A DNA stretch of 64,000 bases from Flavobacteriales bacterium ALC-1 (lineage in GTDB: Bacteria > Bacteroidota > Bacteroidia > Flavobacteriales > Flavobacteriaceae): assembly GCA_000171875.1 (NCBI GenBank), contig ABHI01000007.1, positions 1 through 64,000 on the forward strand, written 5' to 3'. How positions within the stretch are numbered: the first letter of the stretch is position 1; each line of letters starts with the position of its first letter. Shown piece after piece: positions 49,459 to 64,000 of this stretch. Position numbers and translations under genes: made by a program. The notes beneath the pieces were generated by a model. That model worked only from the letters and a program-made list of their open reading frames with translations. It ran no database searches and had not been told where the DNA came from.

Positions 49459-50511
49459 ATGAGTGATAAATTACCACAACAGCCACAAAATGAAGAGGTT
49501 GATTTAGGACAATTATTTAATGCAATTGGCAAATTGTTTGAAAGATTATTCAATTTTATAGCAAGTATTTTCAAAGGCATTTTTTCTGCAATTATTTATA
49601 CAATAAAACCGCTAGTTGATAATTTTAAGTTGGTTCTTTCTGTTGTAATAATTATGGCATTATTAGGTTATGTTTATGAGGGAATTAAAGACCCAGTTTA
49701 TTATTCTAAGATGATTGTGAAGCCTCACTTTGACTCTAAATATGAGTTATCGAGCAATATTGACTATTTTAATTCATTGATTAGCTCAGGTAACATTGCT
49801 GAATTATCAAATATTTTTGAAATAGATTCTTCAAATGCTAAAGAGTTAGTAGGCTTTAATTTGGAAGCTGGTCCAGAAACTCAAAATGATTTATTTATTG
49901 AATATGATGAATACGTTATGTCAGTTGATACATCTTTAGTAGATGAATTAAGTTATACTGAATTTGTAAAAAATAGAGACCTATTATCTGGTAGATTATT
50001 TGAAATTAAGGCAAGGTCGAAAAAAGACAATATTTTCTTATTACTTGAAGAAGGATTTAGTAAGACATTTGAGAATGATTTTTCTAAGTATCAAAAGAAA
50101 GTACGAGATACTATGGCTTTTATTGAACGAGAGACGTTAACAAAACAATTAAACCGCTTAGATAGCATTCAAAAGACCTATTTAGAAGTGATAAAGAACG
50201 AGTCTGAAAACAGAAAATTAACTATTGGTATCGAAGGTGTTTTACCACTTCAAGAGGAAAAGACTGTAACAAAAGAATACGAGCTATTCTTAAAGGAACA
50301 AGAAATTAGAAGAGCTCTAAATAAATTAAACCAAACTATAGCAGAAGAGAATACTTATGTTGATGTTTTATCTAGTTTCGATAAAACAGGGATTAAAGAG
50401 AATAGTATTAGACAACGTTACTCAATTTTATTTCCGATTTTAACCATAATTCTTTTCGTTTTAGGTTTTTTAGTTGTTAAAGCTTTTAAATTCATTAAAA
50501 TTTATGAGTAA
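49459..50511 (+). CDS. Wzz/PCP-like chain-length or co-polymerase protein
   Basis: The 350-residue protein has a hydrophobic segment (about 60-80), a long extracytoplasmic helical region with coiled coils (about 100-310), and a second membrane helix near the C-terminus (about 320-342). This two-helix plan with a periplasmic bell is that of polysaccharide co-polymerases (Wzz). The usual Pro-rich motif before the second helix is absent, so the assignment rests on topology and on position at the head of a polysaccharide locus. Its last 8 bases overlap rfbB. Confidence 0.7.
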   Translation: MSDKLPQQPQNEEVDLGQLFNAIGKLFERLFNFIASIFKGIFSAIIYTIKPLVDNFKLVLSVVIIMALLGYVYEGIKDPVYYSKMIVKPHFDSKYELSSNIDYFNSLISSGNIAELSNIFEIDSSNAKELVGFNLEAGPETQNDLFIEYDEYVMSVDTSLVDELSYTEFVKNRDLLSGRLFEIKARSKKDNIFLLLEEGFSKTFENDFSKYQKKVRDTMAFIERETLTKQLNRLDSIQKTYLEVIKNESENRKLTIGIEGVLPLQEEKTVTKEYELFLKEQEIRRALNKLNQTIAEENTYVDVLSSFDKTGIKENSIRQRYSILFPILTIILFVLGFLVVKAFKFIKIYE

Positions 50512-51526
50512 AAAACAATCTATATTAATTACAGGTGGTGCTGGTTTTATAGGTTCTAATTTTATACTTCATTTTTTAAAACATAATAAAGAAACAGAAG
50601 TTGTAAATTTAGATAAGCTTACCTACGCAGGTGAGCTTTCTAATTTAAAAGAACAGGAGAATAATAAAAACTACACGTTCATTAAAGGTGACATTTGTGA
50701 CTCCGAACTTGTAAATGAGCTTTTTAATAAATATAAGTTCACTGGAGTTATTCATTTTGCTGCTGAATCCCATGTCGATAATTCTATAAAAAAACCAGAT
50801 GCTTTTATAACCACAAATGTTAATGGAACGTTTAACTTATTAAATACAGCCAAAAATTATTGGATGGAAGCACCATTCTCATTTAAAGAAGGTTGTGAAA
50901 ATAATAGATTTCATCATATTTCAACAGATGAGGTTTATGGTTCTCTTGGTGAAACAGGGCTATTTACAGAAGAGACACCATACGCGCCCAATAGTCCATA
51001 TAGTGCTTCAAAAGCATCTTCAGACTTTATCGTTAGAAGTTATTTTCATACTTATGGGATGAGTGTAGTTACTACTAATTGTAGTAATAATTATGGGCCA
51101 AAGCAGCATAATGAAAAACTAATACCAACCATTATTAGAAAGGCTTTAAATAATGAAGCTATTCCGATCTATGGAGATGGTAAGAATATTAGAGATTGGC
51201 TCTATGTTGAGGATCATTGTAGGGGTATTAATTTAGTTTTTCACAAAGGAAAATTAGGAGAAACCTATAATATTGGAGGAAAAAATGAACGAGATAATTT
51301 GTATATAGCACAAAAAATTTGTGATATATTAGACGAATTAAGACCCAAAGACATATCGTATTCTAAACAAATAACATTTGTTAAGGATAGACCAGGTCAT
51401 GATTTCAGATACGCTATTGATGCGTCTAAAATTGAAAATAATTTAGGTTGGTATGCCAATGAAAATTTTGAAACTGGGATTGTGAAAACTATTGAATGGT
51501 ATTTGAGAAAATATAAAAAACAATGA
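50504..51526 (+). CDS. rfbB: dTDP-glucose 4,6-dehydratase
   Basis: This is the second step of dTDP-L-rhamnose synthesis, converting dTDP-glucose to the 4-keto-6-deoxy sugar. It is an SDR enzyme with the NAD-binding [10 protein letters not shown] at about 9-18, the catalytic [13 protein letters not shown] and [10 protein letters not shown] (YxxxK), and the family C-terminal EDHCRGI and [12 protein letters not shown]. The 340-residue length is normal. ATG 50504 overlaps the upstream gene by 8 bp, and the stop overlaps rfbA by 4 bp, indicating a coupled operon. Confidence 0.95.
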
Positions 51527-52386
51527 AGGGAATTGTATTAGCAGGAGGTTCTGGCACAAGACTACATCCATTAACTTTAGCGGTAAGTAAACAGTTGATG
51601 CCTATTTATGACAAGCCAATGATTTACTACCCTATTTCTACGTTAATGTGGTCGGGAATTAAAGATATTTTAATTATATCTACACCTCAAGATTTACCAT
51701 TATTTAAAAAACTTTTAGGTGATGGTAAAAAATACGGTTGCAACTTCGAATATGCAGTACAAAAAACACCAAATGGTTTAGCAGAAGCCTTTATTATTGG
51801 CGAAGACTTTATTGGTGAAGATAAAGTGGCGTTGATTCTAGGCGATAATATTTTTTATGGCACAGGTTTGGCAGATCTATTACAAAAAAATAACAACCCA
51901 GAAGGGGGTATTATATACGCTTACCATGTTAATGACCCGGAGCGGTATGGTGTTGTAGAATTTGATGAAAATGATGTTGCCGTTTCTATTGAGGAAAAAC
52001 CTAAAAAACCTAAATCTAATTATGCAGTTCCTGGTATTTATTTTTATGATAATTCAGTAGTAGAAATTGCAAAAAACATAAAACCGAGTAAACGAGGTGA
52101 ATTAGAAATAACTGATATTAATAAAACATATTTAGACGAAGGCAAATTAAAGGTAAGTGTATTAGATAAAGGTACAGCATGGTTAGATACAGGTACATTT
52201 AAATCTTTAATGCAAGCCTCACAATTTGTTCATGTAATAGAGGAGCGACAAGGTTTAAAAATTGGAGCCATAGAAGAGGCCGCATACAGAATGGGGTTTA
52301 TTGATGAAAAACAATTTAAAAAAGTCGTTAAACCCTTAACAAAAAGTGGTTATGGTATGCGCTTATTAAGCTTATTGTCGGAATAG
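51523..52386 (+). CDS. rfbA: Glucose-1-phosphate thymidylyltransferase
   Basis: This is the first step of dTDP-L-rhamnose synthesis, making dTDP-glucose from dTTP and glucose 1-phosphate. It has the nucleotidyltransferase signature [18 protein letters not shown] at the start, [24 protein letters not shown] and [15 protein letters not shown], with the C-terminal [10 protein letters not shown]. The 287-residue length is normal. It follows rfbB with a 4-base overlap and precedes rfbC. Confidence 0.95.
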
Positions 52387-52387
52387 A

Positions 52388-52933
52388 ATGGTTATAAAAG
52401 AGACAAAATTAAAAGGGTGTTTTATAATAAAGCCACAAGTTATTAAAGACAAACGTGGCTATTTTATAGAGAACTATAATCAAAAGACTTTTAATGAAGC
52501 TCTAGGAATAGAGATAAACTTCGTTCAAGACAACGAATCGCTTTCGACCAAAGGTGTTCTCAGAGGATTACATTATCAACTAGGAAAATACGCTCAAGCT
52601 AAGCTCGTGAGAGTTATAAAAGGAAAAGTCTTGGATGTTGTAGTGGATTTGAGGCCCAAATCCTCTACTTTTGGTGAGCATTTAACCATTGAACTATCAG
52701 AAAAAAATATGACTCATCTTTTTGTGCCAAGAGGTTTTGCACATGGTTTTTTAGTCCTTGAAAACCAAACTATTTTTAGTTATAAATGCGATAATTTTTA
52801 TAATAAAACATCTGAAGCGGGTATAATTTATAATGATAAAGACTTGAATATTAATTGGGAATTATCAAAAAAGGAACTTATTATTTCTAATAAAGACAAA
52901 ATACTCCCAAAGTTTAAAGATGCTAAGATATGA
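52388..52933 (+). CDS. rfbC: dTDP-4-dehydrorhamnose 3,5-epimerase
   Basis: This cupin-fold epimerase acts third in dTDP-L-rhamnose synthesis. Diagnostic blocks are GVLRGLHYQLGKYAQAKLVR with the catalytic His, DLRPKSSTFGEH, and FVPRGFAHGFLVLE with NCT-like downstream Tyr residues. The 181-residue length is normal. It lies one base after rfbA and overlaps rfbD by 4 bp. Confidence 0.95.
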   Translation: MVIKETKLKGCFIIKPQVIKDKRGYFIENYNQKTFNEALGIEINFVQDNESLSTKGVLRGLHYQLGKYAQAKLVRVIKGKVLDVVVDLRPKSSTFGEHLTIELSEKNMTHLFVPRGFAHGFLVLENQTIFSYKCDNFYNKTSEAGIIYNDKDLNINWELSKKELIISNKDKILPKFKDAKI

Positions 52934-53811
52934 TAACAGTACTAGTTACTGCAAAAGATAGTCAATTGGCAAGGTGTATTGAAAGTATATCTAAAAACCA
53001 CCCCAAAGTTAATTTTATTTTTAAATCGTCTTCTGATCTAGATATAACCAAAAAAACTCATGTTCAATCGGTGTTTAACTCAATAAAAGATTTAGATTAT
53101 TGTATTAATTGTGCTGCTTATACTGCTGTTGATAAAGCTGAGGAAGATACAATAAACGCTTATAGTGTTAATGTCTTGGGTTCAAAAAATTTAGCAGAAG
53201 CTTGTTACGAATATGAAGTAACTTTAGTTCATATTTCTACTGATTTTGTTTTTAATGGTACAGTACCTGTACCACAACCTTATTCTGAAGACAGTAACAC
53301 AGGTCCACTAAGTGTTTATGGTGAAACAAAGCTAAAAGGAGAAAAAGTAATTGCGGAGACAATAAAAAAACATTTCATATTTAGAACTTCATGGATGTTT
53401 TCGGAGTTTGGTAATAATTTCTTAAAAACAATGTTAAAACTTGCCACCGAAAGGAACGAGATAAATGTTGTTAGCGATCAAATAGGTAGCCCAACATATG
53501 CTAGAGATTTAGCTAAAGTTATTTTATGTTTCATTGAAAAAGAATATAAAAACTATGGAATATTTCATTACTGTAATCGTGGATCAACAACGTGGTATAA
53601 TTTTGCAAAAGAGATCTTTAGTTTAAGTCAAAAGGGAGTTAAACTAAATAAAGTAAAAACTAAAGATTATCCCACTTTAGCAGCCAGACCGAAATATAGT
53701 GTTTTAGACACTTCAAAAATTGAACAAACACTTGGGGTTACACCTCTTAAATGGGAAGACAGCTTAGCAATAGCCATCTCACGTCTAAATAAGATGTGCA
53801 ATCCTAAATAG
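52930..53811 (+). CDS. rfbD: dTDP-4-dehydrorhamnose reductase
   Basis: This is the last step of dTDP-L-rhamnose synthesis, an NAD(P)H-dependent reductase. The family blocks are INCAAYTAVDKAEED, VHISTDFVFNGT, PLSVYGETKLKGE (YxxxK) and HFIFRTSWMF. The N-terminal GxxGxxG is altered: it reads VTAKDSQLARCIESI where GANGQLG is usual, with only QL preserved. The 293-residue length is normal. It ends the rfb block. Confidence 0.93.
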   Translation: MITVLVTAKDSQLARCIESISKNHPKVNFIFKSSSDLDITKKTHVQSVFNSIKDLDYCINCAAYTAVDKAEEDTINAYSVNVLGSKNLAEACYEYEVTLVHISTDFVFNGTVPVPQPYSEDSNTGPLSVYGETKLKGEKVIAETIKKHFIFRTSWMFSEFGNNFLKTMLKLATERNEINVVSDQIGSPTYARDLAKVILCFIEKEYKNYGIFHYCNRGSTTWYNFAKEIFSLSQKGVKLNKVKTKDYPTLAARPKYSVLDTSKIEQTLGVTPLKWEDSLAIAISRLNKMCNPK

Positions 53812-53850
53812 GTTTACTATTTCACTAGATTTATATTAATAATAGTATTT

Positions 53851-54066
53851 TTGTATTATTACTTCTTATACTATAATTTGCATATAGGGCAGAGACTTAC
53901 TCAAAGTAATGAATATGGTTATGTTCCAAACGTTAATTCTAAGGTTTTGAAGATTAGAGCTGTGAGTGAAATGAATAATGCAGAACTTGATTTAAATAGA
54001 GGAGATAATAATTTATTTTTATTAACCCATAAGGGTTTTTTAATATTAAACCAATCGAGAACCTAA
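53851..54066 (+). CDS. Doubtful small ORF in polysaccharide locus
   Basis: A 71-codon frame opens with TTG and has no ATG until codon 41. I recognise no family. It includes SNEYGYVPNVNSKVLKIR and is AT-rich. A TANNTTTG word (tatttttg, 53846-53853) overlaps its putative start, and a short hairpin lies within its 3' part (54024-54037). It may be a remnant, or simply a leader region before the flippase gene. The 284 bases between rfbD and the flippase hold nothing else I can see. Confidence 0.25.
   Translation: MYYYFLYYNLHIGQRLTQSNEYGYVPNVNSKVLKIRAVSEMNNAELDLNRGDNNLFLLTHKGFLILNQSRT
54024..54042 (+). terminator. Weak hairpin with T-run
   Basis: aaccc (54024-54028) pairs with gggtt (54033-54037) followed by ttttt. 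The 5-bp stem makes this a weak terminator or attenuator candidate ahead of the flippase gene. Confidence 0.35.
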
Positions 54067-54095
54067 ATAGAACGTGGTTTTTGTAGAATTAGAGC

Positions 54096-55403
54096 ATGAT
54101 TAAGAGGTTAGTAATAATAATTTTATTAACTGGGTTAGGGCATATTGTAACATTACTTTCATTAAAGTATATATCAACATATGTAAACAGTAAGACAATT
54201 GCTTTTATCGGAAATGTTGATTCTCTAACACTGTTATTAATCTCGATCATTGCCTTTGGGTTGCAATTATCCGCTACTAGGAATATGGCAATACTTGAAG
54301 ATTGGAAAAAAGAATACTACTTAACCCAATCAGCGCGTTTGACACTTTCTTTATTTCTATTCATATTTGGTATATCTGGTTTTTTTTATACTGAAAACTA
54401 TTTGTTTTTCTTATCCCCAATATTGGCTTTAAATGCTGATTTCGCACTATATGGCAGGGGAAAACCAATTGCGGGAGCATTTGTGGCTTTGGTAAGAATT
54501 CTAATACCCTCTTTAACATTGGTTTTTGCCTCAATCTATTTTCCAGATTTAATAGTAATTCTTTTTGTAATTAGCACAGCTGTTGCATACTTTATTGCTG
54601 GAGTTATAGTCACTAGGATTTTAAGTGTTAGATATTTTATTAAACCTAAATTATCTAGCCTATTAGAATATTATAAAAACTTAAACATTGGGATTGCAAC
54701 TTTTGCTTATATGTTTCTAGGCATTGGAATCGTAAATGTTGCGTCCTATTTATATAACGATGACTCAATAGCTATTATTTATATAGCTTTGAAATTATAC
54801 ATGATCTTTAAAGGTGTTAGAAGAATAATTGTACAATCTTTTTTTAAAGAACTTCAGGAGTTGTCAATATCTGTTAAGGTAGATTATTTTGGAGTTATTG
54901 CTGGACTGCTGTTTTTTGCTGTAATAGTTTTTTATCCCAAAGTAATAATACCTATGCTTTTTGACAATAAATTTATTGAGTATAATTTAGTTTTTATTGT
55001 CTTAGGTGCTGCGGGGTTTATATCTTCGTTTACAACAAGTTCTGGGACGAGACTACTGCTTAAAAAAGAAGATAAGCAATACAGTATTAATATTATAATA
55101 TCTGCTTCGATTGTTATAATTTCTAGTGCTTTTTTATGGATATTTTTTGGAAACAAACCGATTTTAATTGCTATTTCAGTATTATTGGGTGAGGTAATAG
55201 TATCAATTATGAACTCAATAGCACTAAAAGAAAAAAACTATTTAAAAGACAGATTATCAACGGTATATGTTGTTATACTTTTTGGGGCGTTGTTTTTTGT
55301 TTTTAGCTTTATTTTTGGGCAAACCCTACTGTCATTATTTGGGAGCTTAGCAAGTTTTAGCATTTTAACATTTATTTACACCAAAAAACTAAAATTTCTA
55401 TGA
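54096..55403 (+). CDS. Polysaccharide flippase, Wzx-like
   Basis: This 435-residue protein is built almost entirely of hydrophobic helices (about 12), in the MATE/MOP-type arrangement of polysaccharide exporters. It lies within a locus containing rfb genes, a co-polymerase and polymerase/ligase-like proteins, which supports a role in translocating lipid-linked repeat units across the inner membrane. Sequence motifs for Wzx are weak by nature, so the assignment rests on topology and context. The stop overlaps the next gene by 4 bp. Confidence 0.8.
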   Translation: MIKRLVIIILLTGLGHIVTLLSLKYISTYVNSKTIAFIGNVDSLTLLLISIIAFGLQLSATRNMAILEDWKKEYYLTQSARLTLSLFLFIFGISGFFYTENYLFFLSPILALNADFALYGRGKPIAGAFVALVRILIPSLTLVFASIYFPDLIVILFVISTAVAYFIAGVIVTRILSVRYFIKPKLSSLLEYYKNLNIGIATFAYMFLGIGIVNVASYLYNDDSIAIIYIALKLYMIFKGVRRIIVQSFFKELQELSISVKVDYFGVIAGLLFFAVIVFYPKVIIPMLFDNKFIEYNLVFIVLGAAGFISSFTTSSGTRLLLKKEDKQYSINIIISASIVIISSAFLWIFFGNKPILIAISVLLGEVIVSIMNSIALKEKNYLKDRLSTVYVVILFGALFFVFSFIFGQTLLSLFGSLASFSILTFIYTKKLKFL

Positions 55404-56320
55404 GCTTAAAACGTAGAGTTCTTTTTTCAACTTCATGGAGTTCAGATAACATAGACATTGAAGTTAACGGAGGTTTTTTGATGTCTTTTTACATTAAACT
55501 ATTTTTTAAAAAATGGGCGCTTTTAGAGCTTAAAGGTTCTAAATATAAGGTGACGGTTTATCTTAAAGAAGAATTATCTGAGCAAAAAGTGAAATTTTCA
55601 CTTTTTAATTATAGTAGAGATAATAATGATAAAATTATTACTACATCAATCAACAAAATAGATCTTTTCAGAGCAGCGATTAGAAGTTTTTATAAGTTTT
55701 TTGATAAAAACGCCAGCGTGGTTGGTCTTTCCGAGTTATATATGTCAATTATTAGAAAATCGATAGTTGAACCTATTGAATATATAAATTATACTAATGG
55801 CTGGAGGCTTATACATGCTACTGTGTTTAAACTAGAGAACCAAATCTTTATTGTTTCAGCGGGTAGTAAAGTGGGAAAATCTACACTAGTTTCAAAATTG
55901 AGAAATGAAGTTAATTGTAATGTCTTATCAGACAACTATTGTTTTATTAAAGATAATATGGTCAGGACAATAGAGGAGCCAATCAGAGGTGGTGAAGCCT
56001 CGAAATATAAAATAAGTTTTTATGGCAGGACTATAAATGGATATCCAGATAGTTTTGAAGGAGAAATAGACTATTTTATTCTAATGAAACGAGGAAATAA
56101 AAATCAATTGACAAATCTAGACTTTAAAGACTTAAATTTGTTTGTAAATCAAACGAACAACACAGAAAGAGAAGGTGTGTTTTATCTTAATAAAAGTGAT
56201 TCAATTAGTGTTAAAAATTGTGACATAAACTTTAGGGGTAAATACATTCTCAAAGAATTAGAGGTTGCTGAAGGCATAGATAATATTGAATCTTCAATTA
56301 ATTTGATTAAAAACATTTAA
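55400..56320 (+). CDS. HPr-kinase-like P-loop protein A
   Basis: The 306-residue soluble protein has a Walker A motif GSKVGKST at 155-162, preceded by WRLIHATVF (His139) and followed by CNVLSDNYCFI (about 173-183). This order (HA..., P-loop, SD[D/N]) is the core layout of HPr kinase/phosphorylase and its relatives. There is no sign of HPr or a PTS nearby. The N-terminal half is unrecognised. It overlaps the flippase gene by 4 bp and abuts the second HprK-like gene without a gap, so the two are likely coproduced. Confidence 0.72.
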   Translation: MSLKRRVLFSTSWSSDNIDIEVNGGFLMSFYIKLFFKKWALLELKGSKYKVTVYLKEELSEQKVKFSLFNYSRDNNDKIITTSINKIDLFRAAIRSFYKFFDKNASVVGLSELYMSIIRKSIVEPIEYINYTNGWRLIHATVFKLENQIFIVSAGSKVGKSTLVSKLRNEVNCNVLSDNYCFIKDNMVRTIEEPIRGGEASKYKISFYGRTINGYPDSFEGEIDYFILMKRGNKNQLTNLDFKDLNLFVNQTNNTEREGVFYLNKSDSISVKNCDINFRGKYILKELEVAEGIDNIESSINLIKNI

Positions 56321-57223
56321 ATGAGTAATTATCAATTTTCACTTGCCAATAGAGTGAATGTAAATATTTCAGGACTTTTATCAAAAAGCTGTTTCAACTT
56401 TATAACCCTAATATATAAGAATTTTGATAAGCCCTTAAAAGAGCCAAAGTCTGTTTTAAATGTCGTAATTACTAACAAAACGCCTAAGATAGAAAATACC
56501 ACTTCATTAGGAAAAGACTGTATTGCTAATGACAAAACCATAGTGTTTAACACAGGCCATTTTATTACTAAAACGGATAAAGGATATAATTTAGGAGTGC
56601 CTACAAAAGTAAAGAGAGGAAGAATACCATTTAAAAGAATTACTTCTGGCAGACATATTACGGATGAATTAATAGAGCCTTTTATACAAATTTTATTATT
56701 AGAGTCTAATGCAACATTTGTGCACGCATCAAGTATATTTTATAATGATAAAGTAGATGTACTAATGGGCTGGAGAGGTACAGGTAAGACAAACGCTATT
56801 CTTAAAGAATTAAACACTAAAGAAATATGGTCTGATGATTTATCTATAATTGACGCAGATGGATTTGTTTATCCATACCTTAGACCTATTAGGCTTTATT
56901 CATATAATTTACCACTAATTGATAAGAGCTATAGATCAAAACATAGACTTGATGTTAAAAAGTATATTACACCGCCATGGCGGCCTGTTCATTACTTACC
57001 GCTTAAAAACAAAAATACTTTAAATAAAGCTAAGCTTAATAAATTGTATTATTTAAACCGCCCTAATGGGTTAAATTTACCAAAAGATGCTGAGGAGATT
57101 ATGGATTTTGAGCAACTATTTTTTGATCATTATAAAATAATAATGAAGCATTTAGGAATTTTAAAAAAAAGTAATTCTATTGAAAATATTTTAAGATCCG
57201 CATGTAGCTTAAAGAATTCTTAA
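56321..57223 (+). CDS. HPr-kinase-like P-loop protein B
   Basis: The 300-residue protein has the full HprK-like core: ATFVHASSIFYNDKVDVLMG (His135), Walker A GWRGTGKT at 150-157, and EIWSDDLSIIDADG with the acidic pair at 172-173. The C-terminal part (about 195-300) is basic and unrecognised. It differs from protein A beyond this core, so it is not a simple recent duplicate. Relatives called HprK-related kinases are found in capsule and exopolysaccharide loci; their substrates are unknown. The gene begins immediately after the stop of protein A. Confidence 0.75.
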   Translation: MSNYQFSLANRVNVNISGLLSKSCFNFITLIYKNFDKPLKEPKSVLNVVITNKTPKIENTTSLGKDCIANDKTIVFNTGHFITKTDKGYNLGVPTKVKRGRIPFKRITSGRHITDELIEPFIQILLLESNATFVHASSIFYNDKVDVLMGWRGTGKTNAILKELNTKEIWSDDLSIIDADGFVYPYLRPIRLYSYNLPLIDKSYRSKHRLDVKKYITPPWRPVHYLPLKNKNTLNKAKLNKLYYLNRPNGLNLPKDAEEIMDFEQLFFDHYKIIMKHLGILKKSNSIENILRSACSLKNS

Positions 57224-57269: not shown

Positions 57270-58535
57270 ATGCGATATAATAAAGTGAAATTATATAAAC
57301 TTTTCTTCTTTATATTTCTTTTTGGTGTATCCATAGGAAATGTTATCCTTCAATTTGCTTCAATAGTTTTTCTTGGTTTAATTGGACTGTTTTTTATAAA
57401 AAGTAATAAGATTTTTTTCCCTATAAAGGATGTTTTTTACGTCTTGATGATTTTAATTTCTTTTATCCAAATTTTGTTTTTTTTCAATGAAGACTATTCC
57501 TTAAACTATGTTATTAACTCTTTAATCACAACATTTTTATGGGCTTTAATGCTCATGTGTTCTATAGTAATTGTTAGGTTAATTAGCACAATGTCTATGA
57601 GCGATATTGACGAAATTTTAATTATTTTTTTTAAAATAAATGTACTCTTTATCATTATTCAATATATAGGCCTGTCCATTAAGCACGTCTCTTTAATTCC
57701 TTTCTTGTCATCAATGGGAGCTGGAGACTTTATCAAAGGAGTTTTTACAAACTCTTCAGTTAATATGATAATACTATCATTTTTTTCAGTTTATTTTTTC
57801 TATACAAAAAAAATGCGTCTAGCAATTGTTGCCTTATTATGTATAAGCTTTACTACATACATGAGTGGTATCGTTTTATATATAGGCACAGTATTGTTAT
57901 TTGCTTTTTTCTATCTCCCCATTAAATTTAAGACAAGGATAGCTTTAGGTACAATTGTGGGTTTTTTAGTATTTAGTATTATTAGCCCCAAAAACATAGA
58001 ATATGTCAAATCCAATCTTACAAAAAAATTATTTGCAAAGAGAGATCAGGCAAGAAAAATAGTTTCTTTTGAGCAAACAATAGATTACTCGCTTGTTGAC
58101 GCCTCAAATTTTATTTTTGGTGCAGGTGCGGGGAAATTTTCATCCCGAACCGCTTTTATGACAGCAGGTGAATATGTAAGCTGGTATCCTGAAAGTTTAA
58201 TATACGCATCAGAAGAGTTTAATAATAATCATTTTGAGTTGTGGAATGAGAAAATATTAAGCAGACCCTATAAGGATGGAACGGCTAATCAGCCTTTTTC
58301 ATTTTACAATAAAATGATTGGAGAATATGGATTGATAGGTTTCATTATTTTTATTTTATTTTATCTATTCTATCCATTAAGAGGCTATAAAAAACTTACA
58401 TATGGCCGTTTGTTGTTGTTTTTGCTGCTAGCCTATTTTATTCTAGATTATTGGTTTGAGTATTTTACAGTAATTGTCTTTTTTGAAATATTTATGTACA
58501 TGGACATTCTAAGATATAAAAATGAAGAGGTATAG
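57270..58535 (+). CDS. O-antigen polymerase-like membrane protein (Wzy-like)
   Basis: This 421-residue polytopic membrane protein has 10-12 helices and a larger loop near residues 260-350 (VSFEQTIDYS... NNHFELWNEK) of the type seen in Wzy polymerases. No catalytic motif is diagnostic. Position in the locus between HprK-like genes and an O-antigen-ligase-like gene supports a polymerase role. Its end overlaps the next gene by 14 bp. Confidence 0.75.
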   Translation: MRYNKVKLYKLFFFIFLFGVSIGNVILQFASIVFLGLIGLFFIKSNKIFFPIKDVFYVLMILISFIQILFFFNEDYSLNYVINSLITTFLWALMLMCSIVIVRLISTMSMSDIDEILIIFFKINVLFIIIQYIGLSIKHVSLIPFLSSMGAGDFIKGVFTNSSVNMIILSFFSVYFFYTKKMRLAIVALLCISFTTYMSGIVLYIGTVLLFAFFYLPIKFKTRIALGTIVGFLVFSIISPKNIEYVKSNLTKKLFAKRDQARKIVSFEQTIDYSLVDASNFIFGAGAGKFSSRTAFMTAGEYVSWYPESLIYASEEFNNNHFELWNEKILSRPYKDGTANQPFSFYNKMIGEYGLIGFIIFILFYLFYPLRGYKKLTYGRLLLFLLLAYFILDYWFEYFTVIVFFEIFMYMDILRYKNEEV

Positions 58536-59730
58536 TATAGATAGTCTAAAGTATTACTCAATTATATTAGTTGCATTTACACTGCCTTTTCCAATGTTGG
58601 TGAACAACATTGCGATTTTTTTGATGCTTTTTATTATTATAATTAATGCCATTAAAACTAAATGTCGGTTCAAAATAAATAGCATAAGAGTGCTATTAAT
58701 ACTTATTTTTTTATCTAGTGTAATCACTATTATTTACTCCTGTGACTTGGGCTCTGGATTTAAAGTAATCGAAAAATATTTGTCGTTTATAATATTTCCC
58801 ATATTGTTACAATTTTCTAATATTGATAACAGAAAAACACAAGCGGTTAAATACACCTTTGTTTTTTCTGTTGTACTCGTTTTTTTCTATGCGCTACTTG
58901 TGGCGTGCTATAATTATTTAGACTCAGGAACTACAACAGTATTTAATTCAGAAAACTTAGTTTTAGAAAACAGATTTACTTATCATAGACTTATGGGGAA
59001 CGCCAACATTAGCGCCACTGTTTTTGCTTTATACTTAGTTTTATCTATTTCTATTTTGTTTGAAGCTTTTTTTATCAAGAGAGTATTAGCACATCGTTCA
59101 AAAGGTATTTTGTTAATGATCTTTTTAGTATTAGTAATTGCCGTAATGAACTCTTTTTCGGCATATTTAGCCTTAGGAATAATATTTTTATCTACTGTGT
59201 TTTATGTGAAAACTAAGGCTAAGTATTATTTGTTTTTTTTGATTCCCATAGCTCTATCATTGTTGTTTTTTAGTGATAAAGCAAAAGGAATCGATAAAGA
59301 TATTTTTAAATATAACTTAACAGATGATGTTCACAATAAAAACTGGAATTCATTAAATATCAGGTTAGCCAAATGGGAGTGCACACTTAGTGTTATTAAT
59401 GAAACATTCCCTCTTGGCACAGGTGTTGGTTGCGCGCAAAGCACACTCAATGAAAAGTATAAAGAATTAGGGTTTCAAGTTGGCTTGGATAAAAAATTTT
59501 CAACACACAACCAATACCTGCATTATCTATTAGAGAGCGGCATTATTACTTTTTCATTATTTTTATTATTGTTGCTGTATGGAATTTTTAATAGCATTAA
59601 GAAGAAAAATTACTTTTTGTACACGATTTTAATACTATTATCTATATCAAGTTTAACGGATAATTTCTTAATAGTTAATAAAGGCATTGTGTTTTTCACT
59701 TTCTTTATTTCTATAGCTGCAAAAGATTGA
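58522..59730 (+). CDS. O-antigen ligase-like (Wzy_C/WaaL family) membrane protein
   Basis: The 402-residue membrane protein with about 10 helices carries the PF04932-type signature in its large loop: NSLNIRLAKWECTLSVINE, PLGTGVGCAQSTL and STHNQYLHYLLESGI, where the THN-x-YL motif is typical. Members ligate or polymerise polysaccharide on lipid carriers. It overlaps the upstream polymerase-like gene, so the two may act together, one as polymerase and one as ligase. Which is which cannot be told from sequence. Confidence 0.82.
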   Translation: MKRYSIDSLKYYSIILVAFTLPFPMLVNNIAIFLMLFIIIINAIKTKCRFKINSIRVLLILIFLSSVITIIYSCDLGSGFKVIEKYLSFIIFPILLQFSNIDNRKTQAVKYTFVFSVVLVFFYALLVACYNYLDSGTTTVFNSENLVLENRFTYHRLMGNANISATVFALYLVLSISILFEAFFIKRVLAHRSKGILLMIFLVLVIAVMNSFSAYLALGIIFLSTVFYVKTKAKYYLFFLIPIALSLLFFSDKAKGIDKDIFKYNLTDDVHNKNWNSLNIRLAKWECTLSVINETFPLGTGVGCAQSTLNEKYKELGFQVGLDKKFSTHNQYLHYLLESGIITFSLFLLLLLYGIFNSIKKKNYFLYTILILLSISSLTDNFLIVNKGIVFFTFFISIAAKD

Positions 59731-59739
59731 TTTATTACT

Positions 59740-60843
59740 ATGAACAAAAAATCAAAAATCTTATTCCTAGTTCAATTACCACCACCTGTTCATGGAGTAT
59801 CTGTTGTCAATAAAAGTCTTTTAGAAAGTGATTTGGTGAGTTCTCAATTTAAAATTGAATCATTACCATTAGTTTTTGTAAAAAATATTAAAGATATAGG
59901 GAGGCCATCTCTGCTTAAAATTTGGTATCTACTTCTTACAATATTTAGCCTTATTAAGATTCTTATAAGTAAAAAAGTTGATTTGGTATATTTTACTATA
60001 TCACCTACAGGTTTCGCTTTTTATAGGGATATTATTTTCGTCTTTATTTTAAAAACTTTTAGAAAAAGATTAGTATATCACTTACACGGAAAAGGCATTA
60101 GAGAAAATGCCGAAAAGTCTAAAGCGAATAATTTCCTGTACAAATGGATGTTTAAAAACACAAGTGTTATAACCCTGTCAAAGGTTCTAAGTCTAGACAT
60201 TGAAACAGTTTACCGCCCAAAGCCGTATATTCTTAATAATGGTATTAAGAGAGTGGATATTGAAGAGCAAATTAACTCAGAATTAACAACATTTGTTTTT
60301 TTATCAAATCTAAACAAATCTAAAGGAATAAAAATTTTCTTAGATGCAATAAATACGACTCATAAAAATGGTTTTAGATTTAAGGCTAAAATAATTGGAA
60401 ATTCAAGCCAAGATTTTTCTATTGAGGATTTAAAAAAATATGTAACTGCCAATGATTTAAATAGCGTTGTTGAGATATTAGGCCCACAATATGGGAATGA
60501 TAAGTTTGCTCAGTTGGCGATGTCAGACGTATTAGTTTTCCCTACTCTAAATGATTGTTTTCCGCTATCAATTATTGAAGCAATGCAAATGAAATTATCT
60601 GTAATTTCAACACCCATTGGTGCTATACCAGAAATAATTGAAAATGGTATTAATGGTCAAATTTTATCAGAAAACAATAAAACAACAGTAAGTAAAGCCA
60701 TGATTAATTATATTAATAACCCATTTCTAGCCAAAGAATATGGACTAAATAATTATAATAAATTTATTCAGAAATATACTCAAGAAAAGTTTGAAGAGAA
60801 TTTTATTAAAATTATAAATAAGATTTTAACAAATCTTCGTTGA
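59740..60843 (+). CDS. Glycosyltransferase, GT-B fold (family 4-like)
   Basis: The 367-residue enzyme shows the start LFLVQLPPPVHGVSVVNKSL, the central FVFLSNLNKSKGI acceptor/donor hinge, and the donor-binding SIIEAMQMKLSVISTPIGAI with PEIIENGINGQIL, giving the E-x7-E-type motif of family 4 retaining transferases. It probably adds one sugar in assembly of the repeat unit; its donor is unknown. It lies 9 bp after the ligase-like gene. Confidence 0.88.
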   Translation: MNKKSKILFLVQLPPPVHGVSVVNKSLLESDLVSSQFKIESLPLVFVKNIKDIGRPSLLKIWYLLLTIFSLIKILISKKVDLVYFTISPTGFAFYRDIIFVFILKTFRKRLVYHLHGKGIRENAEKSKANNFLYKWMFKNTSVITLSKVLSLDIETVYRPKPYILNNGIKRVDIEEQINSELTTFVFLSNLNKSKGIKIFLDAINTTHKNGFRFKAKIIGNSSQDFSIEDLKKYVTANDLNSVVEILGPQYGNDKFAQLAMSDVLVFPTLNDCFPLSIIEAMQMKLSVISTPIGAIPEIIENGINGQILSENNKTTVSKAMINYINNPFLAKEYGLNNYNKFIQKYTQEKFEENFIKIINKILTNLR

Positions 60844-60875: not shown

Positions 60876-62765
60876 ATGTGTGGAATAGTGGGATTCATAG
60901 GGTTCGATAACTTAAAAGAACTGGCAATTAATGCTAATAATGAGCAAAAACATAGAGGGCCAGACTCTCAAGATTTTTGGTGTGATGAGCATATTTCACT
61001 TGCTCATCAACGACTCTCAATAATTGACTTAAACGAAAGAGCTAACCAACCACTACATAAAGAGAATTTTGTTATTATTTATAATGGAGAGCTCTATAAT
61101 TATAAAATTTTAAAAGAATATTTAAAAATCACTTACGATTCTAAGTTTTCAACTGAATCCGATACCGAAGTGGTCTTAGAATATTATATTAACGAAAAAG
61201 AAAAGTGCCTAGAAAAATTTGAAGGCATGTTCTCTTTTGCAATTTATAACAAGACCACCAAAGAAACTTTTATAGCAAGAGATTGCTTTGGAATTAAACC
61301 GCTTTTTTACTCGATTATTGGTGAAAATATATGTTTTGCTTCGGAATTAAAATCTTTAACAGACGTAGAAGGGTTTGACAAAAACATAAATAAAAGGGCT
61401 TTGGTTGCATCTTTAAATTACTTATGGATTCCGGGCAATGAATCAATTTTTATGGGAACTCATAAATTACCACCTGCCCACTATATGATAATTTCTGATT
61501 ATAAGAAAATAAGCATTAAGAAGTATTGGAATTTGGCTGATAGTATTAATAACAACCTTAATGAAGATGAGGCTGTAGAAGGATTACAAAATGTTATCGA
61601 GGAAAGCATAGCAAGACATATGATTTCAGACGTACCTGTAAGTACTTTTTTAAGTGGAGGTATTGATTCCTCTCTAATATCTATTATTGCCTCAAAGCAT
61701 ATAGAAAAACTATCTACGTATACGATTACAACTAATCAAAAAGATAAGAAAGTTGAACAGATGCCAGACGATCAGAAATATGCTAGACTATTAGCAAATC
61801 GCCATAAGTTTGATTATAATGAAATTGAGATATCTCCAGATGTTGTAAAAATTTTACCAGAAATTGTAAAAACACTTGATGAACCAATAGGAGATCCAGC
61901 TGCCATCAACACTTACCTTATTTGTAAGAAAGCTCGAGAAAAAGGGGTTAAGGTATTATTATCTGGTATGGGAGCTGACGAAATCTTTTTTGGATATCAA
62001 AGACATAAGGCTTTGTTGTATGCAAAAAGATACAACCAATTACCTCAACTATTAAAATTTATAATAAAAAAAGCAGTTAACCTCTTGCCTGTAAAAATTT
62101 TTGGCAAAGGAATAATATTGACTAGGTGGGCTAAAAGATTTTTAAATTTCGCTTCATTACCTATAGATGAAGCATACATGAGGAGTTACTCTTATTATAA
62201 CAAAGGAGAATTAAAAGAATTGCTAAAAGATGTGGACAATATAGATATTGATTACATATTTAAACACCATAAAGTTACTTTTAATGAAAAATTTAAAGAT
62301 GATATTGTAAATCAAGTATGTAATACAGATATACAAATGTTTATGAATGGCTTAAATTTAACCTATACCGATAGGGCTTCTATGGCTGCTTCAGTAGAGG
62401 TTCGAGTGCCTTTTATAGACAAAAAGGTGGTGGAATATGCTATGTCTATACCAGCAAAATATAAGTTTAATAAAAACCAAACTAAATACATTTTAAAGAA
62501 AGCAGCGGAAAAACATCTTGATAAAGATATTATTTACAGAAAAAAAGCTTCATTTGGCGCTCCTATTAGATCATGGATTTCTAATGAATTAAAACCTATG
62601 GTTGATGATTTGTTATCCAAAGAGCGAATGAATAAAAGAGGAATTTTCAATTATGAGTTTGTTGCAAAGCTTATTGAGCGGGATAGATTAGGTAAAGAGG
62701 ATAATGCTTACCAAATTTATCAATTATTAACTATTGAATTATGGATGCAAGCATATGTTGATTAA
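60876..62765 (+). CDS. asnB: Glutamine-dependent asparagine synthase family
   Basis: The 629-residue protein has an N-terminal glutamine amidotransferase domain with the nucleophile Cys2 (MCGIVGFIG), YNGELYNYK and RDCFGIKPLFYS, followed by the synthetase domain with pyrophosphate-binding SGGIDSSLISI at about 259-269 and SGMGADEIFFGY. It converts aspartate to asparagine with ATP and Gln, or in polysaccharide loci amidates a sugar acid or other group. Presence inside this locus favours the latter role, but that is inference. Confidence 0.92.
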   Translation: MCGIVGFIGFDNLKELAINANNEQKHRGPDSQDFWCDEHISLAHQRLSIIDLNERANQPLHKENFVIIYNGELYNYKILKEYLKITYDSKFSTESDTEVVLEYYINEKEKCLEKFEGMFSFAIYNKTTKETFIARDCFGIKPLFYSIIGENICFASELKSLTDVEGFDKNINKRALVASLNYLWIPGNESIFMGTHKLPPAHYMIISDYKKISIKKYWNLADSINNNLNEDEAVEGLQNVIEESIARHMISDVPVSTFLSGGIDSSLISIIASKHIEKLSTYTITTNQKDKKVEQMPDDQKYARLLANRHKFDYNEIEISPDVVKILPEIVKTLDEPIGDPAAINTYLICKKAREKGVKVLLSGMGADEIFFGYQRHKALLYAKRYNQLPQLLKFIIKKAVNLLPVKIFGKGIILTRWAKRFLNFASLPIDEAYMRSYSYYNKGELKELLKDVDNIDIDYIFKHHKVTFNEKFKDDIVNQVCNTDIQMFMNGLNLTYTDRASMAASVEVRVPFIDKKVVEYAMSIPAKYKFNKNQTKYILKKAAEKHLDKDIIYRKKASFGAPIRSWISNELKPMVDDLLSKERMNKRGIFNYEFVAKLIERDRLGKEDNAYQIYQLLTIELWMQAYVD

Positions 62766-62800: not shown

Positions 62801-64000
62801 ATGAACAAAGTAATAATAAAAACGCAATTTAAATTATATTTTTTTTTAATAGTAATTGCTTTTATTGGGGACATATTTAGGCGCCTCGCAATGTATTCAA
62901 ATTTTAGTTTTACTAGATATACCACCTTATCTAAAATTATCTTTATTTCAGTTTCTTTTTTTTGTTTAGTTTTCTTTTATCGAAAATTTACTTTAAAAGA
63001 TAAATTAAAAGTTAACATAATTAAATTAATGTTATGCCTGTCTTTAATTTATGTTATTGGGCATTTTAATAGTAATAATTCTCTCTCTGTTCTATATGAA
63101 AATTTTGAATTCTTAGCTAAATATTTCTTTCTTCCCTACCTATTAATTTTATTCATAGACTTAAGAAACGATGGAATAGCAATTGAAAGGCTTATAAAGC
63201 TTTTTGAAGTTCTGTTTTTTATTAATCTAGGAGCAATCTTAGTTGGTTATGTTTTTAATGTTGATGTGTTTCAAGCATACGATAGTGGTAAACGTTTTGG
63301 TTATAAAGGGATTTATTCAATGTCTGGACAAACCAGTATTTATTTCATCTTAATGGCTTTATACTATTCACATAATTTAATATTAAAAAAATATGATCGT
63401 ATTGTTTTTCTTAAATTGGTTATAGTAATTTTTGGTTCGTTCTTAATAGGCACTAAGCGTATATATTTATTTGTACCAATTCTGATTATATATTATTTGT
63501 TTTTTTTAGGAGGATATAAAAAGAAAATCACATATCAATTTGGTATCCCAATATTCGCAGGCACATTTTTATTATTTCTATTAATTAAAAGAGACATACA
63601 ACGAACTTTTGATGTATTATATTCAATTTATGACACTAAAGGGTTTTTGTCAAGTTTAACATCTTATAGAAGTGATTTGCTTACAGAGATATATACAACT
63701 ACAATTGTAAATGACTGGACTTTCTTGAATTTCTTATTTGGTGGTTTAGACTTTAGGATTTTAAGAACAGAGATGGGTTTTGTAGACTTATTTTTGTTTT
63801 TTGGTCTAATTGGGTTTTTAATCTATTTATACTTTTATAGAATACTTTTTCAGTTCAAATTTTCTCATAGTTTTTATTGGTTCTTTTTAATATCGTTAAT
63901 TGTTATTGTTTTTTTCGCAGACGCTTTCATTTTAGAAGCAAATATCCCTATTTTGTTCTTATTATTGTGTTTTTATTTCTATAATCATGAGCAGGGTGAG
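62801..64000 (+). CDS. Polytopic membrane protein, polymerase/ligase-like, cut by right edge
   Basis: The frame opens with ATG 62801 and stays open for 400 codons to the last base of the window, so the end is missing. The protein is highly hydrophobic, with about 10 helices, and has a loop with FGGLDFRILRTEMGFVDLF near residue 310, as seen in Wzy-type polymerases or O-antigen ligases. It follows asnB by 35 bp in the same polysaccharide locus, making it the third polymerase/ligase-like membrane gene there. Role not distinguishable from the others. Confidence 0.72.
   Translation, partial: MNKVIIKTQFKLYFFLIVIAFIGDIFRRLAMYSNFSFTRYTTLSKIIFISVSFFCLVFFYRKFTLKDKLKVNIIKLMLCLSLIYVIGHFNSNNSLSVLYENFEFLAKYFFLPYLLILFIDLRNDGIAIERLIKLFEVLFFINLGAILVGYVFNVDVFQAYDSGKRFGYKGIYSMSGQTSIYFILMALYYSHNLILKKYDRIVFLKLVIVIFGSFLIGTKRIYLFVPILIIYYLFFLGGYKKKITYQFGIPIFAGTFLLFLLIKRDIQRTFDVLYSIYDTKGFLSSLTSYRSDLLTEIYTTTIVNDWTFLNFLFGGLDFRILRTEMGFVDLFLFFGLIGFLIYLYFYRILFQFKFSHSFYWFFLISLIVIVFFADAFILEANIPILFLLLCFYFYNHEQGE

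Follow-up and report, generated by a model that had tools for sequence, protein, structure and literature searches.

Two adjacent genes, here called A and B, lie at positions 55400-57223 of a 64,000-nucleotide stretch of contig ABHI01000007.1 from Flavobacteriales bacterium ALC-1 (the window), inside a polysaccharide-assembly locus, and encode proteins that resemble HPr kinase (HprK). We tentatively propose that they are HprK-like kinases recruited to a Wzx/Wzy-type locus, in which B may phosphorylate the repeat unit of the polysaccharide and A may serve as its degenerate partner. That B descends from the HprK superfamily is established, and for A the same descent is probable; neither is a canonical HprK, since the cut-offs of the family models are not reached and no HPr is found in the genome. 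An earlier reading, made from the letters of the DNA alone (the sequence-only reading), had described two abutting open reading frames (ORFs), and these were confirmed at exactly its coordinates, with products of 306 (A) and 300 (B) residues. The start of B is the base directly after the stop codon of A, a gap of 0 bp; A overlaps the preceding flippase-like gene by 4 bp, and 46 bp separate B from the next gene. Both frames are open, with a codon-position GC pattern nearly that of the upstream gene.

The two proteins share the core geometry of HprK: a histidine, a P-loop lysine 21 residues further on, and an Asp-Asp or Asp-Asn pair another 16-18 residues downstream. The HA...P-loop...SD(D/N) arrangement to which the sequence-only reading had drawn attention is present in both (H139 and D178-N179 in A, H135 and D172-D173 in B). 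In the kinase BsfK, the motif consists of H148, G163, G166, G168, K169, S170, D186 and D187; the exchanges G166A and G168A are tolerated, changes at the other motif positions lower activity, the histidine is proposed to stabilise the last aspartate, and the serine and the aspartates coordinate magnesium (PMC10368454; here and below, statements on published work refer to the accessible parts of the papers). Compared with BsfK, B retains every motif residue, with threonine replacing serine (H135, G150, G153, G155, K156, T157, D172, D173), whereas A has lysine for one P-loop glycine and asparagine for the last aspartate (H139, A154, K157, G159, K160, S161, D178, N179). The layout is therefore common to both proteins, but A departs from it at positions that are important in BsfK. 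The alanine at position 154 of A is not alarming, because the four parsed glycan-locus sequences of f11, a family of the same taxonomic order, also have alanine there.

Of 33 parsed sequences, 28 show a His-to-Lys spacing of 21; the other five have it too when read by eye, the script having taken an earlier GK in them and returned the artefactual values 16 or 19. The row from genome G298, with its Asp pair 26 residues after the lysine, is doubtful, and genome G362 was missed by the motif script (HS, not HA). Asparagine replaces the last aspartate in three of the 33: A, copy 1 of the three copies in Ichthyenterobacterium magnum, and one protein linked to ribosomally synthesised and post-translationally modified peptides (RiPPs). 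Copy 2 of I. magnum is complete, while copy 3 has alanine and arginine in the P-loop. Each of the two multi-gene loci thus has one full-motif copy plus one or two without the full motif, which is the basis for the partner hypothesis. A regular expression for HA...P-loop...SD(D/N) matched two of the 65 stop-to-stop ORFs of at least 100 residues in the window and none of 13,000 shuffled ORFs; this count measures rarity and is no independent test, because A and B were already known when the pattern was drawn up.

The sequence-only reading had named placement in a well-characterised kinase family as a point that would speak against it. The superfamily does have characterised members, but both proteins stay below the cut-offs of all curated models in Pfam and NCBIfam. 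The best NCBIfam hint is a match of B to HprK-related kinase A (TIGR04352) at E 0.11 and 11.5 bits, the cut-off being 200 bits; A has no match to this model, and neither protein matches the canonical models PF07475 and TIGR00679 at E<=1. By eye, the RGxG-type stretch EIRGxG(IL)(IV)D, about 30 residues after the DD pair, is absent from B; A has IRGG, but at a spacing other than that of canonical HprK. No similarity between A and B is detectable by BLASTP (E 0.32). In single comparisons, B matches I. magnum copy 1 at E 2e-8 and a protein from the glycan locus of genome G809 at E 2e-12 (29% over 213 alignment columns), and A matches I. magnum copy 1 at E 3e-5.

In hhalign comparisons, B alone scored 88-92% with the three HprK-like sets and 0.3-11% with three sets of other P-loop proteins (guanylate-kinase-like proteins, ABC transporters and GTPases). 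For A alone, two of the HprK-like sets gave 86-90% and the third gave 22%, while the controls gave 2-47%. Taken together with two I. magnum relatives, B reached 93% against canonical HprK; A with I. magnum copy 1 reached 64%. Structures predicted from five-row alignments had mean pLDDT values of 33 and 37, the P-loop core being the best part (50-70), and because these models are poor, their fold matches serve as direction only. In the comparison with HprK structures that the sequence-only reading had suggested, the low-confidence models have HprK (A) and phosphoenolpyruvate carboxykinase (PEPCK) or HprK (B) as top matches, all at E of at least 0.08. For A, Foldseek ranks HprK/P (1kkl) at positions 1-3 (prob 0.97, rmsd 1.4 over 51 columns, E 0.38-0.45), with the fourth match at prob 0.06; for B, the top 20 are all PEPCK and HprK chains (E 0.08-0.39). 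A sequence search of the PDB with A, B and a B-type profile returned nothing useful. Among the glycan-locus relatives described below, that of G410 finds HprK structures as the top four of six PDB sequence matches, at E 0.0033, and that of G405 exceeds the PF07475 cut-off (36.8 vs 33.3 bits). The HprK-like core claimed for both proteins is accordingly upheld for B, by profile comparison and with fold matches that point the same way, and is probable for A.

Canonical HprK phosphorylates HPr on a serine. No match to HPr (PF00381) was found at E<=1 in the whole window genome; the control search was positive in nine of 14 genomes, above the cut-off in seven. The sequence-only reading had seen neither HPr nor other parts of the phosphotransferase system (PTS), and its claim stands for HPr, the PTS protein that was searched. 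Canonical HprK (PF07475) is above the Pfam cut-off in 215 of the 296 genomes of a phylum sample. The window genome has no PF07475 match at E<=0.001 and one at 0.0014, which is taken to be an HprK-like gene on another contig, C7 (0.0012 there, on the same E scale). Within the family, the three genomes of this sample with any match at E<=0.01, that of the window included, match canonical HprK weakly (2.9e-5 to 0.0035). Among 199 genomes of the family, A was found in the window genome only, and B has matches in three, one of which, in G187 (E 5.6e-4), is confined to residues 211-280 and to a repeat-like ORF of about 645 residues and was dropped as spurious. A match to A in G044 (E 0.004), within a secreted-type protein, was dropped as well.

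Eleven HprK-like genes were found in eight glycan loci from three families, the window locus included. In I. magnum, which belongs to the same family as the window genome (Flavobacteriaceae), the locus combines rml genes and NeuB with a CMP-sugar synthetase that is fused to a phosphatase-like part; three tandem HprK-like genes come next, followed by the flippase. Six further loci carry a single copy, five of them in f11 genomes (G405, G410, G444, G335 and G362) and one in G809, a genome of the same class. The f11 loci have one HprK-like gene each, and in them the frame of a Pfam-supported flippase overlaps the HprK-like gene; they also hold NeuB-like and CMP-synthetase-like genes (by eye) and a gene of about 200 residues. 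A nucleotidyltransferase identity for this last gene was not retained (hhalign 36%; no Pfam nucleotidyltransferase match in the four examined of the five). In G809, genes for Gfo/Idh, a hexapeptide transferase and a DegT aminotransferase adjoin the B-like gene, and a single glycosyltransferase gene separates the latter from the flippase. A Pfam-supported flippase is thus the direct neighbour in six of the eight loci and one gene off in a seventh, counts that are not independent because five of the eight loci come from f11, whose HprK-like proteins are 48-57% identical, and that yield no frequency because the loci were found by searching for relatives. Decorating enzymes occur in f11: a carbamoyltransferase and a polysaccharide deacetylase in locus L140, which also has a GT11 enzyme, and a sulfotransferase in L141. 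The genomes that carry these five similar f11 loci (L140-L143 and L013) are small and mostly incomplete. As for the view that the pairing is not a well-described arrangement, the exact pair was not found elsewhere, but I. magnum has its tandem triplet, six other loci carry a single HprK-like gene, and HprK-like kinases of capsule loci have been published as members of RiPP clusters (PMC13381572).

Two trees of the HprK-like cores were built, the first of 34 rows with a plasmid-borne Halobaculum protein and without G362, the second with G362 and without the Halobaculum protein. In the first, the glycan group needs two changes, compared with a shuffled mean of 9.5; the Halobaculum protein was counted in this group, though none of its listed neighbours is a glycan-assembly gene. 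This archaeal protein, encoded near a phosphotransferase gene on plasmid NZ_CP126159.1 (L015:11842-13137), has a P-loop (WRGAGKTN) much like that of B (WRGTGKTN). The canonical HprK clade is supported at 100/100 and a clade linked to NTP_transf_5 genes at 99/100; B pairs with I. magnum copy 2 (94/86), a pair that is then joined by copy 3 and the Halobaculum protein (93/90). A forms a very long branch and is unplaced. Recent tandem duplication as the origin of A and B is disfavoured (approximately unbiased (AU) test, p 0.049 against an A+B clade); groupings of A with I. magnum copy 1 (p 0.44) and of all five A, B and I. magnum rows (p 0.375) are neither rejected nor shown.

The polysaccharide setting claimed in the sequence-only reading is borne out by Pfam and profile annotation of the neighbours. 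The order is Wzz-like gene, rmlB, rmlA, rmlC, rmlD, flippase-like gene, A, B and polymerase-like gene, followed by Wzy_C, GT4, AsnB, a membrane protein without Pfam match, a GH88-like gene, WecG, a WcaJ-like bacterial sugar transferase and GT2. Of the genes that flank the pair, the upstream one is flippase-like by size, about 11 predicted transmembrane (TM) segments and position, the downstream one polymerase-like by position only, and neither has a Pfam match; the flippase-like gene also has no profile support and its TM count comes from a crude hydropathy script, and the next gene, at 58522, is the one that matches Wzy_C. The AsnB protein keeps its MCG start (Asn_synthase, 5.8e-92), the cysteine of which is expected of a working amidotransferase. 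The 284-bp gap at 53812-54095, before the flippase-like gene, is the sole gap above 150 bp among the 17 locus genes and is possibly a promoter region; a 71-residue ORF with a TTG start in it has no Pfam match. A GH88-like/GH127-like protein, odd for an assembly locus, is encoded between a polymerase-like gene and WecG, from window position 63987 to 64000 and on to 65159 of the same contig (C2; L010:6987-8159).

Table. Coordinates of genes and motif codons in the window
Feature	Position	Strand	Remark
Wzz-like chain-length protein	49459..50511	+	weak, below cut-off (2e-4)
dTDP-rhamnose genes rmlB, rmlA, rmlC, rmlD	50474..53811	+	
Multi-pass membrane protein, flippase-like	54096..55403	+	by size, ~11 TM and position only
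Gene A, HprK-like, 306 aa	55400..56320	+	degenerate motif (Asp-Asn, Lys in P-loop)
A His139 codon	55814..55816	+	equivalent of BsfK H148
A P-loop AGSKVGKS, residues 154-161	55859..55882	+	
A Asp178-Asn179	55931..55936	+	BsfK D186-D187 position; last Asp replaced
Gene B, HprK-like, 300 aa	56321..57223	+	complete catalytic motif set
B His135 codon	56723..56725	+	
B P-loop GWRGTGKT, residues 150-157	56768..56791	+	
B Asp172-Asp173	56834..56839	+	
Multi-pass membrane protein, polymerase-like	57270..58535	+	~8 TM; by position only
Wzy_C / O-antigen ligase family protein	58522..59730	+	Pfam, 1e-16
GT4-type glycosyltransferase	59740..60843	+	
Asparagine synthetase B-like (AsnB) amidotransferase	60876..62765	+	MCG N-terminus

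Taken together, the sequences show an HprK core in B and, less firmly, in A, degenerate positions in A, a location within the assembly locus, and relatives in glycan loci that mostly adjoin a flippase. In the proposed mechanism, B would use ATP-Mg on the cytosolic face, just before flipping, and its target would be a hydroxyl group on the lipid-linked repeat unit or on its sugar donor, so that the product would be a phosphorylated polysaccharide. A, without the last aspartate, would contribute little or no catalysis and would serve as a partner in shaping the oligomer or in substrate recognition. Since HprK forms oligomers, a mixed assembly of A and B would be natural. The more specific version, in which an active kinase and a pseudokinase act as a pair on the lipid-linked repeat unit before it is flipped, is unlikely as it stands. 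A glycan or lipid-linked substrate is preferred because of the position of the genes, the decorating enzymes of f11 and the lack of detected RiPP genes in the locus; this is a preference rather than a proof, and the substrate could be a protein. The broader suggestion of the sequence-only reading, that the two proteins may phosphorylate a sugar, lipid or protein in capsule assembly, is plausible.

Several observations weigh against the proposal of a glycan kinase with a degenerate partner. The characterised HprK-like relatives act on peptides or proteins, not on glycans, in the published accounts as far as accessible. A and B are only 13% identical, and A, as mentioned, sits on a very long branch. 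The score of A against the guanylate-kinase-like set, 46%, is not negligible, and A combined with I. magnum copy 1 reaches 91% against this set over 29 columns; single-sequence comparison with canonical HprK is negative for both proteins (A 0.5%, B 0.9%). In the second tree, B and I. magnum copies 2 and 3 group at only 61/14, which leaves the precise position of B uncertain. Finally, flippase adjacency in the window locus rests on topology and position, and the glycan loci are dominated by the closely similar f11 cases.

A different role for B, together with A, would be that of a protein kinase and regulator that acts on a serine of a locus protein, such as the Wzz-like one or a membrane protein of assembly, and thereby sets chain length or output. 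The HprK-like kinases with a determined substrate act on serine in peptides (PMC10368454, PMC8498205). The action of HprK on a serine of HPr fits the same picture, the absence of HPr leaving the substrate open. However, A and B sit in the flippase/polymerase part of the locus and not beside the Wzz-like gene, no small protein accompanies the HprK-like genes in all eight loci (by eye), and regulation would scarcely call for two divergent copies; this explanation is on balance rather unlikely. Loss of kinase activity, with A and B as non-catalytic ATP-binding adaptors or decaying remnants, would account for the asparagine and lysine of A, for the alanine and arginine of I. magnum copy 3 and for the rarity of both genes in the family. 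It sits poorly with B, which retains all catalytic positions, and with open frames that overlap or abut their neighbours and resemble the upstream gene in codon-position GC, and we regard it as unlikely.

It is also conceivable, if improbable, that the two genes are a relic or part of a RiPP pathway, like the tailoring kinases of paeninodin/LPP type in capsule loci. HprK-like kinases and NTP transferases do occur in capsule-embedded RiPP clusters (PMC13381572), and several class-level relatives lie in clusters that look RiPP-like from their neighbours. In the window, by contrast, the 17 locus genes include no match to RiPP recognition element (RRE), leader-protease or ABC-transporter families (by Pfam, which RREs can escape), the one gap above 150 bp offers only the 71-residue ORF, AsnB has the start and score of an asparagine synthetase, and the only NTP_transf_5 gene found in the genome is on another contig, beside the other HprK-like gene. 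More doubtful still is B as a small-molecule (sugar or amino-acid) kinase that supplies a precursor, such as a donor of the nonulosonate pathway. NeuB and CMP-sugar synthetase are indeed present in six of the eight loci (I. magnum by Pfam, five by eye), but neither was found on the window contig (tblastn with I. magnum queries, best E 0.11) nor recognised by eye in a 19-kb stretch of G809, and such a kinase needs no flippase as neighbour.

The second HprK-like gene of the window genome (378 residues; contig C7, L078:8533-9666, minus strand) is paired with the NTP_transf_5 gene (L078:7432-8496, minus strand), and the pair adjoins a 1190-residue ORF with a secreted-protein-like start. Similar HprK-like genes of about 370-390 residues occur in many genomes of the family, mostly with an NTP_transf_5-type neighbour where the surroundings were fetched. 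In the HprK-like search of the 199 genomes, 88 match at E<=0.01 and 20 at E<=1.4e-6; 18 loci (L020-L037) were used, 17 of which carry the motif. Many weaker matches, which cover a short P-loop segment of frames about 190-240 or 540-560 residues long, were dropped; of five such short proteins sampled, one is another P-loop protein and four look like guanylate kinases. A second search gave 24 of 345 genomes at E<=1e-6 (context taken for 16 places in 12 genomes), and a third 10 of 356 at E<=1e-5 (seven further places examined, plus G405 and G298). A scan of viral contigs found no relatives, and one of genome contigs returned a single locus with poorly placed patterns. Plasmid matches, in Halobaculum, Sphingomonas, Gemmatirosa, Streptomyces and Agrobacterium, are weak (neighbourhoods viewed for five). 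Four RiPP-like loci (L115, L116, L118 and L121) combine an HprK-like match with runs of tail-collar-like proteins, an asparagine-synthetase-like gene and an ABC-type transporter, of which Collar, synthetase and transporter are Pfam-confirmed in L116 only; they are possibly an undescribed cluster type.

If the more specific version, with an active kinase and a pseudokinase, is right, the A/B pair would represent a new class of glycan kinase, with an HprK fold and tied to a Wzx flippase, and the glycan loci found elsewhere in the bacterial class would repeat it. The characterised HprK-like kinases in print phosphorylate RiPP precursors, and most HprK-like proteins of bacteria that lack HPr have no assigned function; a flippase-linked, RiPP-free branch in glycan loci would point to an enzyme that phosphorylates surface polysaccharide. 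The pair is moreover well suited to testing cleanly if an active and a degenerate copy can work together as one HprK-like enzyme. Titles and abstract openings in the literature, of partial coverage and thus no proof of absence, mention no HprK-like kinase in a polysaccharide locus. A 2026 study places RiPP clusters that combine an RRE with an HprK-like kinase and an NTP transferase within capsule loci; their roles, its authors state, remain unknown (PMC13381572).

Compared with canonical HprK/P (PF07475, TIGR00679), described for instance in Xanthomonas (PMC6916182), A and B are alike in the P-loop core, as suggested by Foldseek on low-confidence models, and in motif spacing; they differ in having no Pfam or NCBIfam match and no RGxG at the expected place, and in a genome without HPr. 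The HprK-related kinases A and B (TIGR04352, TIGR04355) show weak core similarity, the first model to B and the second to the three I. magnum copies, which match TIGR04355 at E 4e-5 to 0.008. The PqqD-type partner of HprK-related kinase A, which also appears in one annotated record, was not seen among the 17 locus genes. The pair on contig C7 shares the HprK-like core and the genome, but differs in its NTP_transf_5 partner, in the large secreted-type protein nearby and in its separate clade. Also close are the kinases of lasso peptides and other RiPPs of the paeninodin type (BsfK, ThcoK, SyanK, LppK): lasso-peptide precursors are phosphorylated by HprK homologs, one of which works with a nucleotidyltransferase that attaches hexoses to the phosphate group (PMC8498205). 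They resemble A and B in the histidine, P-loop and DD motif published for BsfK, and in being stand-alone HprK-like kinases, some of them in capsule loci; the window locus differs in that it shows no precursor peptide, RRE, protease or cyclase (Pfam, 17 genes) and no NTP_transf_5 partner, and in that A lacks the last aspartate. HprK-like kinases outside the PTS are thus already known, and what is new here is the flippase-linked glycan setting with a complete and a degenerate copy side by side.

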